Made by a program: the position numbers and the translations under genes. A stretch of 50,169 bases of DNA from an uncultured Pelagibacteraceae bacterium. GTDB lineage: Bacteria > Pseudomonadota > Alphaproteobacteria > Pelagibacterales > Pelagibacteraceae. Below, in pieces: positions 14,276 through 33,575 of the stretch. The DNA lies in NCBI GenBank assembly GCA_913050185.1, contig CAJXBA010000007.1:1-50169 (forward strand), in the 5' to 3' direction. Each line of letters starts with the position of its first letter. Positions within the stretch are counted from its first letter, which is position 1. The notes below the pieces were generated by a model. That model saw nothing but the letters and a program-made list of their open reading frames with translations, was not told the DNA's origin and did not search any database.

Positions 14276-15346
14276 TTATATATTTTTTGATAAAAACTTT
14301 TGTCTAAGATTATCTATTGGAACTATTGAACCGCCAACATTACAATACCAGTAGGTCCAACCGTTATAACTTTCAGTTCCCATTATTTTAGCTGCAACTT
14401 TATGTATAGAACCTGCAGACTCTTTATGTTTAATACTGCCATCTACCATGATTTTTGCATTAATTTTTTTCTTTTGATCGAAAATATTAGTTCCTGGCTT
14501 TATTATTCCTAATTCAACCAAAGATCCAAAAGGTACTCTTGGTTTAGATTTATTATTTTCTAGAGTATCTAAGTAGCTTTCCTCAATAACTTTAGCTTTA
14601 TTAATTCTTTCATCTGCTGCTTTAAAATATTTTTTTTCTTTTTCTATTCCGAAATATTTTCTACCTAATTTTTTTGCTACGACCGCAGTAGTTCCAGTAC
14701 CTAAAAATGGATCTAAAATAGCATTATCTTTATTTGTTGTTGCTAAAATAATCCTATGTAAAAGCGCCTCCGGCTTTTGAGTAGAATGGACTTTTTTTCC
14801 ATTTTTTTTTAGTCTTTCTTTTCCATTGCATATAGGAAATGTCCAATCAGAACGTATTTGCAAATCATCGTTTAAGCACTTAAGGGATTGATAGTTAAAA
14901 GTATATTTTGATTTTTTGCTTTTAGATGCCCATATTAAAGTTTCATGAGCATTAGTAAATCTTGTTCCTTTAAAGTTTGGCATTGGATTATTTTTTCTCC
15001 AAATAACATCATTAAGTATCCAATAACCAGCATTTTGAATATGATAACCTATACGAAAAATATTGTGATAAGTTCCGATTAGCCAAATTGAACCATCATC
15101 TTTTAGAACTCTTTTACATTCATTCAACCATTCTATGCAAAACTTGTCGTAGTCGGCAAAACTTTTAAATTGATCCCACTTATCACTAACTCCATTTACT
15201 TTGCTATCATCTGGTCTCTTCAGTTTTTTTCCTATTTGTAAATTGTAAGGAGGATCAGCAAAAACCAAATCAAAAGTATTGTTTGGAATTGTTTTTAATA
15301 TTTCTAATGAATTGCCATTAATAATTTTATTTAAAAATTTAGACAT
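14276..15346 (-). CDS. ccrM: Cell-cycle DNA adenine methyltransferase, CcrM type (GANTC)
   Basis: A 356-residue beta-class N6-adenine methyltransferase. DPPY is at 31-34 and the SAM-binding DPFLGTGTT at 212-220. The C-terminal region from about 268 (KPRVPFGSLVELGIIKPG) is the extra domain that marks CcrM orthologues, which methylate the adenine in GANTC. The length is close to the 358 residues of Caulobacter CcrM. The frame extends to a TTG at 15358, but the ATG at 15346 (MSKFLNKIINGNSLEIL) is preferred because it fits the family and the promoter upstream. No matching restriction gene is nearby, so it is a solitary epigenetic regulator. Four GANTC sites lie just upstream. Confidence 0.95.
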   Translation of the reverse strand: MSKFLNKIINGNSLEILKTIPNNTFDLVFADPPYNLQIGKKLKRPDDSKVNGVSDKWDQFKSFADYDKFCIEWLNECKRVLKDDGSIWLIGTYHNIFRIGYHIQNAGYWILNDVIWRKNNPMPNFKGTRFTNAHETLIWASKSKKSKYTFNYQSLKCLNDDLQIRSDWTFPICNGKERLKKNGKKVHSTQKPEALLHRIILATTNKDNAILDPFLGTGTTAVVAKKLGRKYFGIEKEKKYFKAADERINKAKVIEESYLDTLENNKSKPRVPFGSLVELGIIKPGTNIFDQKKKINAKIMVDGSIKHKESAGSIHKVAAKIMGTESYNGWTYWYCNVGGSIVPIDNLRQKFLSKNI

Positions 15347-15351
15347 ATTCA

Positions 15352-15422
15352 GATTCAACTTTACGTTGAATTAGACTCTAAATTAATGAATCAGTCAAAC
15401 GTTGGTTTGAAAAAAATGAATC
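15352..15422. promoter_or_regulatory. Cluster of four GANTC methylation sites upstream of ccrM
   Basis: GANTC occurs at 15352-15356, 15374-15378, 15388-15392 and 15418-15422, four sites in 71 bases. From base composition roughly one per 350 bases would be expected. One site overlaps the -10 box, one lies at the -35 end of the spacer, one is in the leader and one is at the rnhB stop. A 7-base inverted repeat (ATTCAAC at 15353-15359, GTTGAAT at 15365-15371) overlaps the leader and the -10 box. The sites are the substrate of the gene they precede, which suggests feedback control. Confidence 0.7.
15370..15398 (-). promoter_or_regulatory. Predicted ccrM promoter
   Basis: Read on the minus strand, TTGACT (15393-15398, five of six matches to TTGACA) is followed after exactly 17 bases by TCTAAT (15370-15375, five of six matches to TATAAT). 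Expected transcription start is near 15363, giving a leader of about 17 bases to the ATG at 15346. The spacer begins with GATTC, and GAGTC runs into the first two bases of the -10 box. Confidence 0.6.
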
Positions 15423-16016
15423 TTATTGTGTTTCATGCGCCGCAGGACTCAAGATGTTGTGTACCGGTTTAAATTTTTTTCTATGATGCTTTGTAATTCC
15501 ATATTTTTTCAGTCCGCACAAATGATCAGCTGTGCCGTATCCAAAATTTTTATGCCAGTTATAATTTGGATATTTTTTCGATAATTTAATCATAAATAAA
15601 TCTCTCGATGCTTTTGCTACAATTGAAGCTGCGGCGATTGAAGTTATTTTTTCATCACCTTTAATAATAGTTTTGTATTTTATTTTAATTTCTTTGGGGG
15701 CAAACAATCCATCTATGTATGCTACCGAAGGCTTAAACTTTAATTTATTCAAAGCTCTTTTCATCGACAAAAGGGAGGCATTTAAAATATTAATTTTATT
15801 TATTTCATTAACACTTGCTGTTCCAATAGCATATATTGAATTTTTTTTTATATAATTGGCAATCAAAATTCTTTTTTTAAAAGGAATTTTTTTTGAATCT
15901 CTAATATCTTTTTTGTTAATATTTTTATTTAAAATTACAGCTGCAGCAAACACTGGTCCAGCCAAAGATCCTCTGCCCACCTCATCAACGCCAGCTATTT
16001 TATTTTTTTTGAACAA
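15423..16016 (-). CDS. rnhB: Ribonuclease HII
   Basis: A 197-residue RNase H2 that cuts at ribonucleotides embedded in DNA. The catalytic acids begin in AGVDEVGRGSLAGPV (D11, E12), with further blocks YIDGLFAP and KASRDLFM that include the third and fourth acids, and the substrate-sensing YNWHKNFGYGT. Length matches the family. It lies five bases after udg and 77 bases before the ccrM ATG. RNase HI is encoded in the same window, so both ribonucleotide-processing routes are present. Confidence 0.96.
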   Translation of the reverse strand: MFKKNKIAGVDEVGRGSLAGPVFAAAVILNKNINKKDIRDSKKIPFKKRILIANYIKKNSIYAIGTASVNEINKINILNASLLSMKRALNKLKFKPSVAYIDGLFAPKEIKIKYKTIIKGDEKITSIAAASIVAKASRDLFMIKLSKKYPNYNWHKNFGYGTADHLCGLKKYGITKHHRKKFKPVHNILSPAAHETQ

Positions 16017-30520: not shown

Positions 30521-31310
30521 TACTCTTGATAAAAAGGATTATTACACAACCACCCAGAAAGGTTAGAAGACTTAGGATAGTACCCATAGAAAAATAGTTA
30601 AACAAGTAACCCAGTTGTTCATCTGGTTCTCTAAAATATTCTCCAATTATTCTAGCTATTGAATATAAGATTAAAAAAAACCCCGAAACATATCCTGGTT
30701 TCAAAAGCAATTGTTTTTTTATGGCCAACAAATTTATTATGATGAAAAGAATAATTCCCTCTAATATGGCTTCATAAATTTGCGAAGGATGCCTTGAAAT
30801 ATTGTCTGCATTTGGAAAAAGCACAGCCCAAGGAAGTGTGGAAACTTTTCCATAAAGCTCACCATTTATAAAATTTGCCATTCTTCCAAGAAAAATCCCA
30901 ATTGGTGCAACACACGCAATAATATCACTTAGGTTGAAAAAATTAACTCTTCTTATTTCAGAGAAAATAATTATTGAAACTATTACTCCTAACAAACCTC
31001 CATGAAAAGACATTCCGCCTTGCCAAATTTTTAAAATATCAATGAGATTTTTACTGTAAAACCCTAGATTATAAATAATTACATAACCTAATCGTCCTCC
31101 TATAATAATTCCTAATACCAAATAAATTATTAGATCATCAAAGACTTCTTTTTTTACCAACTTCAAGTTGTGTTTGATGGATATTTTTTTGATTATTTTT
31201 ACGGCATAGATCCAACCTAAAATTATTCCAAGAATATAGGCTAAGGAGTACCATCTAATTTGAAAAAAGCCTAAATCTATAAATACTGGATCAAAATTGT
31301 GGACTATCAT
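30504..31310 (-). CDS. lgt: Prolipoprotein diacylglyceryl transferase
   Basis: A 268-residue inner-membrane enzyme with about seven helices. It transfers diacylglycerol to the lipobox cysteine of prolipoproteins. Conserved parts are GGRLGYVIIYN, the arginine/glycine-rich GRMANFINGELYGK signature, PRHPSQIYE-like SRHPSQIYEAILEG, and REPDEQLGY near the end. It heads the lgt-midA-pgeF unit. The 60-base divergent gap to ubiK is almost pure A+T. Confidence 0.97.
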   Translation of the reverse strand: MIVHNFDPVFIDLGFFQIRWYSLAYILGIILGWIYAVKIIKKISIKHNLKLVKKEVFDDLIIYLVLGIIIGGRLGYVIIYNLGFYSKNLIDILKIWQGGMSFHGGLLGVIVSIIIFSEIRRVNFFNLSDIIACVAPIGIFLGRMANFINGELYGKVSTLPWAVLFPNADNISRHPSQIYEAILEGIILFIIINLLAIKKQLLLKPGYVSGFFLILYSIARIIGEYFREPDEQLGYLFNYFSMGTILSLLTFLGGCVIILFIKSNEQNN

Positions 31311-31370
31311 TTGTAAAAAAAGATTTATTTAACAATCAATTTAAAATAACTTAAAGATATTTAATAATAT

Positions 31371-31607
31371 ATGGAAAAATATAACAAGATACTAAAAAAT
31401 TTAACGGAATTAGTGGAAAAAGGTTTTTTCACTTCAAGAGATTTGAAAAAGACAGTAGAGGAGAGCATTAAATTTAAATTAGAGAGTATTACTAATAAAC
31501 TAAACCTCGTCTCCAGAGAAGAATTTGAAGTACAAAAAAAAGTGATCCAAAAATTACAAAAAGAATTAAATAAGCTAAAAACTAAAAAGAAAAAGAAAAA
31601 TGGCTAA
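31371..31607 (+). CDS. ubiK: Ubiquinone biosynthesis accessory factor UbiK family (BMFP)
   Basis: A 78-residue small helical protein. The pattern of an N-terminal amphipathic helix, then LDLVTREEFEVQ-like KLNLVSREEFEVQKKVIQKLQKEL coiled coil and a lysine-rich end, matches the UbiK/YqiC (membrane fusogenic, DUF526) family. UbiK assists the late ubiquinone-synthesis complex in E. coli. The match is by short pattern only, but size and context are right. Its last four bases overlap the convergent histidine kinase end. Confidence 0.8.
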   Translation: MEKYNKILKNLTELVEKGFFTSRDLKKTVEESIKFKLESITNKLNLVSREEFEVQKKVIQKLQKELNKLKTKKKKKNG

Positions 31608-32917
31608 TACGGTAAGGAAATTATTACCCTAAGACCGTTTAAAGAACTTTTTTCTAGAGAAATATTTCCCCCGTGTGAACGAATGATATCGTTAGCAATT
31701 GACAAACCCAATCCGACCCCCAATTTATTTTGACCTCGACTTTTGTCAATTCTATAAAAATGTTTTAATACATTTTGGTATTCACTTTCATGGATGCCGG
31801 GTCCATCATCATCAATCAGTATCAATATATTATTCATCATTTTTTTTGTAAAAATTTCAGTTGTTTTTCCATAGGCTAACGCGTTGTCTATTAAATTAGC
31901 TAAACATCTTTTTATTGAACCTGGGCGAATGTTAATTTTCGGACATTCTTCGAGAAATAATTTAATTTGTTTTTCTTCGTATTTTTTTGTTACATCTCTG
32001 ATTAGATGACTGATATTCATTAATTCTGTTTTTTCATTTTTTTGATAACGAGAAAATTCTAGATACTCGTTGAGCATTCGCTCCATTTCTTTGATATCTT
32101 CACCCATTTTTTTTGCTAAGTCTTGTTGTTTTAACATGGCTAATTGTAGTTTTAGTCGTGTCAATGGGGTTCTTAAATCATGACTTATTCCAGACAACAT
32201 TTCTGACCTTTGGTTTAGGTGAACTGTGATTCTCTTTCTCATTCTGTCGAATTCATAACCGGCTTGTCTTATCTCTAATGCACCAGATGGCCAAAATCCC
32301 CTAGTTGATTCTCCTTTGCCAAATTTCTTAGCTGCTTTTGCTAAATTTACAATAGGTCGAGTTTGATTTTTCAAAAAAATTATAGCAATGAGTATTAGTA
32401 AAAGACCAGGCAAAGTTATCCATAGTGCAAAGATTCGTGCTGATGAAGGTGCAATTTTATATTTAGGGAAAAATACTTGCAGTATTTCATTTTTATATTT
32501 GATTCTCAAATCTACCAGTTCTTTATATGTTGTTGTATCAAACCAATATGAATTTTGAAAAATTGGTTTTAATTCACGTCTTAAACTTCTGTCCATTGGA
32601 CTGAACCATCTTTCTGTTTTTCTTTTGGGTAAAATTTCATTTTTTTTTAACATGACAACAAAATCGAAATTTTTATTATATAAATCAATGACGGCTTGTT
32701 GGTTAATTTCTTGTTGGAAAAGATCAAACATAGTCTGAACTTCACTAGTTAGAGATCGAGTCATTCCTTTATTTGCTTTTATCCAAAGACTGTCGAAGAA
32801 AACGATTGTAATAATTATTTGTAACAAAATTATTGGGGCCGCTACTATTATTAGCGATCTATAGAAAAGTCTTTTTGGTAAAATTCTTTTGAAAAATTTA
32901 TTCAATCCATAAAACAT
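31604..32917 (-). CDS. Sensor histidine kinase, EnvZ-like
   Basis: A 437-residue membrane sensor kinase. TM1 is about 19-41 and TM2 about 162-183, enclosing a periplasmic domain of about 120 residues. HAMP follows (184-236), then the DHp domain with phospho-acceptor H246 in GISHDLRTPLTR, an N-box LANLIDNALAYGK, DDDGPGI and GLGLSIANDI. The ATG at 32917 is preferred; a longer frame to 32971 would add 18 residues inside the regulator gene and before the natural start MFYGLNKFFKR. It is the last gene of a MarR-regulator-kinase unit. The signal sensed is unknown. Confidence 0.93.
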   Translation of the reverse strand: MFYGLNKFFKRILPKRLFYRSLIIVAAPIILLQIIITIVFFDSLWIKANKGMTRSLTSEVQTMFDLFQQEINQQAVIDLYNKNFDFVVMLKKNEILPKRKTERWFSPMDRSLRRELKPIFQNSYWFDTTTYKELVDLRIKYKNEILQVFFPKYKIAPSSARIFALWITLPGLLLILIAIIFLKNQTRPIVNLAKAAKKFGKGESTRGFWPSGALEIRQAGYEFDRMRKRITVHLNQRSEMLSGISHDLRTPLTRLKLQLAMLKQQDLAKKMGEDIKEMERMLNEYLEFSRYQKNEKTELMNISHLIRDVTKKYEEKQIKLFLEECPKINIRPGSIKRCLANLIDNALAYGKTTEIFTKKMMNNILILIDDDGPGIHESEYQNVLKHFYRIDKSRGQNKLGVGLGLSIANDIIRSHGGNISLEKSSLNGLRVIISLPY

Positions 32918-33575
32918 AACCGGACCCCCTGATCGTTTGCAAATATTTTGGATTTTTTGGTTGAGACTCAATTTTTTGTCTTAGTCTTGTGATCATTACA
33001 TCTATGGTTCGCTCTTTTGAAATTTTAATAATTTTGCCAATTTCCTCTCTAGAAAAAATTCTTCCTGGAGATCCGAGCATCTTTTCCAAAATTTTTTTTT
33101 CCTGAGGATTTATTTTTATAGTTTCATTATTTCTTTTAACATTTAATTTTTTTAAATTAACTAATGTATTGCCGACATATACTTCTTCCGGTATTTCAAA
33201 CATTTTTGTTTTACTCAAAATATTTTTTATCCTCAACAGAAGTTCCTTTGGTTCAAAAGGTTTTCCAAGGTAATCATCGGCCCCCAATTCCAATCCTTTG
33301 ATTCTATCTTGAATTTCTCCTTTTGCGGTCAAAAGAATTATTGGCGTCGAATTATTTTTTTTTAAATATTTTGTTAAAGATAAACCACTTTCTCCTGGCA
33401 TCATAATGTCTAATACAAGTATGTCAAATTTTATAATTTCTATTTTTTTTTTAGCTTCAACCACATCTTTTGCTGTTGTAACTAAAAAGTGATTTTCTTC
33501 GAGATATTGTTTTACCAATTCTCTAATTCTATCATCATCATCGACAACTAGTATATGAAAAACATTTTTATTCAT
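32898..33575 (-). CDS. petR: OmpR-family response regulator (PetR-like)
   Basis: A 225-residue two-domain regulator. The receiver has acids D11-D14, phospho-acceptor D56 (LVLDIMMPGESG), and the conserved T/K sites (ILLTAKG, GKPFEPKELLLRI). The C-terminal winged-helix DNA-binding domain contains SREEIGKIIKISKERTIDVMITRLRQKIE and ends GSGYVLWIE. It overlaps the MarR stop by eight bases and the kinase start by 20. A MarR gene plus OmpR-type regulator is the petP-petR arrangement known from Rhodobacter, where it is next to the bc1 operon. Here petABC is 8 kb away, so the pet role is inference. Confidence 0.88.
   Translation of the reverse strand: MNKNVFHILVVDDDDRIRELVKQYLEENHFLVTTAKDVVEAKKKIEIIKFDILVLDIMMPGESGLSLTKYLKKNNSTPIILLTAKGEIQDRIKGLELGADDYLGKPFEPKELLLRIKNILSKTKMFEIPEEVYVGNTLVNLKKLNVKRNNETIKINPQEKKILEKMLGSPGRIFSREEIGKIIKISKERTIDVMITRLRQKIESQPKNPKYLQTIRGSGYVLWIE

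Follow-up and report, generated by a model that had tools for sequence, protein, structure and literature searches.

In Caulobacter, where the timing of CcrM levels has mainly been worked out, the ccrM gene is driven by CtrA. In published models of the Caulobacter gene, the hemimethylated state permits transcription and methylation ends it (PMC2217572, PMC4219702), and methylation control of its promoter has been called most probable (PMC3973325). The Caulobacter ftsZ and mipZ promoters are activated by methylation (PMC3708114), and methylated GANTC at sigma70 promoters is read by GcrA (PMC3667746, PMC7403470). In an alphaproteobacteria-wide survey in 2010, methylation control could not be deduced from counts of GANTC (PMC2877005). 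A survey in 2021 suggested that ccrM belongs to the core targets of GcrA, using motif scores that ignore promoter position; for Ca. P. ubique its evidence of GcrA regulation was slight (PMC7987155). Methylation of GANTC has been documented in other Pelagibacter (PMC9516812), and two papers report that ctrA is missing from Ca. P. ubique or Pelagibacter (PMC7987155, PMC2877005).

We examined the ccrM locus in a 50,169-nt stretch of DNA (the window) from a SAR11 bacterium of the family Pelagibacteraceae, whose genome assembly comprises 1.24 Mb in 87 contigs at 30% GC. Few marine bacteria are as abundant as those of SAR11, which apparently lack CtrA yet keep CcrM, GcrA and methylated GANTC. The ccrM product scored above cut-off for two domains, N6_N4_Mtase (PF01555, 226.7 bits) and a C-terminal RAMA domain (PF18755, 55.2 bits), and matched the NCBIfam CcrM equivalog model over residues 5-350, covering nearly the full model, at 555.7 bits, below the cut-off of 830; the name of that model, DnaMtaseCcrMCaul, suggests that its cut-off was perhaps calibrated on the Caulobacter type. 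We assign the gene to ccrM because of the full-length model match, the presence of both domains and the synteny with rnhB, and its product presumably methylates GANTC in the source organism. The CcrM of the closest named relative, a Pelagibacteraceae metagenome-assembled genome, is 93% identical, and the ATG start is common to the close relatives. The stop codon of rnhB (15423-15425) is separated from ccrM by a gap of 76 bp, and the rnhB C-terminal motif was found upstream of ccrM in 53 of 68 genomes sampled across the class.

The gap contains four GANTC sites, arranged on the minus strand in the order GATTC, TTGACT, GATTC, GAGTC/TCTAAT, inverted repeat, GAATC and ATG (Table 1), with GANTC lying within -40 to +40 of the predicted ccrM transcription start, which falls near 15363. 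On the promoter strand, the sites occur in the contexts TGATTCA, AGAGTCT, TGAATCT and AGATTCA. The initial annotation had placed one GANTC at the -35 end of the spacer, one running into the -10 box, one in the leader and one upstream, and all four are found exactly there. Its description of the promoter as near-consensus was generous: TTGACT-N17-TCTAAT is indeed present, but TCTAAT, while matching the -10 consensus at five of six bases, deviates at position 2 (-11), the base most important for melting.

Table 1. Features of the rnhB-ccrM region, in window coordinates
Feature	Position	Strand	Evidence or conservation
ccrM, adenine-N6 DNA methyltransferase (target GANTC), 356 aa	14279-15346	-	ATG 15344-15346
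GAATC in leader, 5 nt from ATG	15352-15356	-	15/16 close relatives
Inverted repeat ATTCAAC-N5-GTTGAAT in leader, possible operator	15353-15371	-	same spacing in genera g6/g7
-10 element TCTAAT, predicted, 17-bp spacing	15370-15375	-	sequence
GAGTC sharing two bases with -10	15374-15378	-	16/16 close relatives
Spacer, 17 bp, ending in GAG of GAGTC	15376-15392	-	
GATTC directly after -35	15388-15392	-	1/16 close relatives (source genome only)
-35 element TTGACT	15393-15398	-	sequence; TTGAC in 16/16 close relatives
GATTC directly after rnhB stop codon	15418-15422	-	8/16 close relatives, middle base T/C
Fifth GANTC, inside rnhB	15446-15450	-	
rnhB, ribonuclease HII, upstream of ccrM	15423-16016	-	Pfam RNase_HII 139.6 bits

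The window as a whole carries 114 GANTC sites (1 per 440 bp), fewer than the 135 predicted by shuffling. As genome background we used the window together with twenty more stretches, 436 kb in total or about 35% of the genome, in which GANTC density was 2.17/kb in intergenic and 2.05/kb in coding DNA; there is therefore no general intergenic enrichment of GANTC, which rules it out as an explanation of the cluster. At 5.3 GANTC per 100 bp, the rnhB-ccrM gap was the densest of the 172 gaps of at least 20 bp, so that the count by intergenic region puts it far above background, and the earlier claim that four sites in 71 bases are unusual is borne out, as a second such span occurs nowhere in the 436 kb. 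Among 435 genes, ccrM had five GANTC in the 110 bp upstream and the next best gene had two. The combination TTGAC-N13-15-GANTC occurred five times in the 436 kb, with only the ccrM copy outside genes.

We then compared about 130 ccrM upstream regions from SAR11, in which the 16 close relatives are those sharing the architecture of the window. Equal conservation of all four sites is ruled out, since the GATTC at the -35 element is private to the source genome, whereas the GAGTC at the -10 element is invariant in the close relatives. Conservation of site positions, which the initial annotation had named as a check, thus held for the -10 site but failed for the -35 site and in genera g2 and g5, where the core sites have largely been lost; across g2, g4 and g5 a core site was found in only three of seven genomes. 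An equivalent site near the -35, at +8/+9 from TTGAC, is common in other lineages. In genera g6 and g7, GATTC lies at +9 from TTGAC, often with GAATC at +25, and a core site was present in 74 of 75 genomes; all 16 Pelagibacter-type promoters carry a pair of core sites, one at +8/+9 and one at +20, and a second SAR11 family has sites at +8 and +19 (13/13). Site positions therefore move between SAR11 lineages, but in most of them the core promoter still contains methylation sites. Separately, the ccrM -35 is closely preceded by a conserved TTTTCACGTAAAA element in one subgroup (L031, L036, L045, L046 and others), and the -10 is followed by a sequence resembling TCACGTGA in some Pelagibacter-type loci (L074).

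Beyond the order, we sampled 68 ccrM upstream regions, one per alphaproteobacterial family. Over the 150 bp preceding ccrM, GANTC density was 19.1/kb, an approximately 9-fold enrichment, compared with 2.0/kb in the gene start and 2.15/kb further upstream at the same loci, and seven control pentamers of the same form reached 1.9-3.2/kb upstream of ccrM. The sites peaked at fixed offsets from TTGAC, namely +19 (27 genomes), +7 to +10 (36 cases) and -15 (15), with +8 and +19 as the individual peak offsets. Wherever the +19 site occurred (27 genomes), the hexamer at 17-bp spacing was a -10 of the form CAnnnT, which puts A at -11 and T at -7 and takes as its first base the final C of GANTC. At the site near the -35, the middle base varied (C in 12, G in 11, T in 8 and A in 5) while GA-TC remained constant; thus, what is kept is the methylation site and not one fixed sequence. 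The -10 boxes were weak throughout, which could mean either that a co-activator is required or that output is meant to be low. TTGAC lies 35-38 nt from the ATG in 22 of the 46 class promoters that have a core site, as it does in the ccrM promoters of SAR11 genera g6 and g7 (e.g., L089), so that the transcription start is predicted at or next to the ATG; as judged from this spacing, the ccrM mRNA would be leaderless or nearly so in g6/g7 and at those 22 loci. The core arrangement was absent in 22 of the 68 class genomes and in 4 of the 7 genomes of g2, g4 and g5, and is therefore dispensable.

Searching 115 genomes for a strict two-site pattern, TTGAC-N2-4-GANTC-N6-GANTC, yielded 23 matches compared with one for the reversed control. 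Fourteen of the 23 lay directly upstream of ccrM in the correct orientation, and no downstream gene recurred among the other nine. A second two-site match in the source genome (G000:C12) was rejected as a like promoter, being located in FNR-like boxes by a narG-like gene (nitrate reductase alpha subunit, named by eye from the translation); the FNR-like dyads there, TTGATTTGAATCAAG and TTGATTCGATAGAATCAA, lie at L271 1660-1980, that is, at about 31,160-31,480 of G000:C12, and the gene suggests nitrate respiration in low-oxygen water by the source SAR11 bacterium. Elsewhere in the same genome (L183 10740-10970, G000:C17), two GANTC lie 11 bp apart, at -50 and -39 upstream of a gene, with the spacing of the class-wide ccrM pair and TTGAC not in place.

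As judged from these comparisons, the predicted promoter between rnhB and ccrM is a real, strongly conserved regulatory feature. The reading that we favour, with slightly better than even confidence, is that this promoter is replication-coupled, methylation-sensitive and autoregulatory. A sigma70-type promoter of ccrM's own would lie in the gap with CcrM target sites in its core, one over the -10 element and, in many lineages, one near the -35, with extras up- and downstream; its activity would be set by the methylation state of the core sites, which would make ccrM both autoregulated and coupled to replication. Passage of the replication fork would leave the promoter hemimethylated and CcrM would restore full methylation, the promoter being on when unmethylated or hemimethylated and off when fully methylated, after enough CcrM had been made, such that full methylation would lower ccrM transcription and produce a self-limiting pulse. 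On this model, methylation of the -10 site would place methyl groups within the sigma-contacted region, just upstream of the melting point. By analogy, the methylation effect is most likely negative, a sign favoured because Caulobacter ccrM is so modelled and because a purely positive loop cannot restart from unmethylated DNA; since methylation activates some alphaproteobacterial promoters, the sign at ccrM may nonetheless be positive. Transcription presumably starts at the predicted promoter, where methylation, whichever its sign, would act on initiation, and ccrM may also be transcribed by read-through from rnhB.

The strongest competitor, which we consider unlikely though worth weighing seriously, is a positive loop read by GcrA, in which the sigma70 cofactor GcrA would be recruited to methylated GANTC and activate ccrM, offsetting the weak -10 box. 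GcrA is encoded in the source genome (G000:C15:23145-23579; PF07750, 118.4 bits) and was present in 83 of 97 genomes of the order. Placement of sites between -35 and -10, as here, has been linked in Caulobacter to activation at 40-60 min of the cell cycle (PMC4287350), and polymerase is brought to methylated promoters by GcrA (PMC3667746). In addition, ccrM is a predicted core GcrA target outside the Caulobacterales (PMC7987155), and the weakness of the -10 boxes fits as well. Against such a loop, core sites at ccrM were equally frequent in class genomes with GcrA (36/54) and without detectable GcrA (10/14; Fisher p=1.0), in a comparison that counts genomes rather than independent losses and includes some incomplete genomes, and in which a very divergent GcrA could escape detection. 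A broader GcrA profile run on the ten relevant genomes gave nothing credible (one match, E=0.23), and three control genomes were positive. GcrA alone therefore does not explain retention of the sites, and its presence as the cause of retention is not supported. Moreover, none of the four window sites matches the extended motif YGAKTCG proposed for GcrA-activated promoters, in the form quoted in PMC7987155, and the inability of a purely positive loop to restart also weighs against this alternative; the evidence does not establish the ccrM promoter as a GcrA-dependent one. For the direct autoregulation through polymerase contacts that the initial annotation had suggested, the outcome is mixed. 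Most of the conditions proposed to refute it do not hold, and retention in genomes without GcrA favours a direct effect over one through GcrA only, but the -35 site is private, core sites are mostly gone from g2 and g5, and the -10 is weak. Since the genome also encodes GcrA, which is known to read methylated promoters, an effect on the polymerase contacts themselves is a possibility and no more.

A search of 20 SAR11 genomes with the CtrA model NF045991, a Rhodobacter-type model that could miss a divergent CtrA, gave no match above the cut-off of 350 (best 148 bits), and CtrA control of SAR11 ccrM was rejected for want of an above-cut-off CtrA. Across the class, CtrA-like boxes occurred in 4 of 46 promoters with core GANTC and in 6 of 22 without (p=0.07, not significant). 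The best match to the CtrA model in the source genome, at 113 bits (cut-off 350), is an OmpR-type response regulator in the window (32898-33575, minus strand), and a GANTC pair lies 49 and 43 bp upstream of its gene.

An operator origin of the start-codon GANTC appears improbable. Here, the inverted repeat ATTCAAC-N5-GTTGAAT would bind some regulator, and the GANTC would arise from its half-sites, as happens in the source genome at an FNR-like dyad elsewhere that creates GANTC likewise; the repeat is kept, its spacing unchanged, in g1 and g6/g7. However, the conserved GAGTC at the -10 lies outside the repeat, no such repeat is evident in g3, in f2 or among the class genomes, where core GANTC nonetheless occurs, and the free middle base at the site near the -35 is left unexplained. 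That the cluster has no regulatory role, being a chance or composition-driven grouping by an ordinary weak promoter, is very improbable: the private GATTC and the losses in g2 and g5 point that way, but density, position and class-wide conservation are far above the matched controls.

The favoured autoregulatory reading has a more far-reaching form, which we offer tentatively and regard as rather doubtful. The ccrM promoter would be ancestral to the class, with GANTC fused to the -10 element (GANTC then ANNNT), and RNA polymerase itself would read adenine methylation at about -15/-13, giving feedback independent of GcrA or CtrA that would be the main control of ccrM in streamlined SAR11 and in GcrA-less lineages. 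A -10 contact that is also a CcrM site, kept across the class and in genomes without GcrA, would make a simple self-limiting circuit, and the arrangement offers a short signature for finding ccrM promoters and for dating the addition of CtrA control. The literature that we searched, with most subscription papers outside its reach, contained no account of the fixed geometry, of the class-wide overlap of GANTC and -10, or of retention in GcrA-less genomes.

Compared with known systems, the locus resembles the Caulobacter ccrM promoter in having GANTC in the promoter region, for which shut-off by methylation has been modelled (PMC2217572, PMC4219702, PMC3973325). It differs in that the Caulobacter promoter is CtrA-activated, whereas the 20 SAR11 genomes have no above-cut-off CtrA, and in that the SAR11 site overlaps the -10 itself, a contrast in which the Caulobacter side is taken from description only. 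With the GcrA-CcrM promoters (mipZ, podJ, pleC and ctrA P1) it shares GANTC in or near the core and a GcrA encoded in the same genome, but at ccrM the retention of sites across families is independent of GcrA, and the YGAKTCG motif, as quoted, is unmatched. The predicted GcrA regulon (PMC7987155) had already flagged GANTC upstream of ccrM in many alphaproteobacterial orders, but attributed these sites to GcrA and ignored their positions; beyond that survey, the fixed offsets, the overlap with the -10, the conservation in SAR11 and the retention without GcrA appear to be new.
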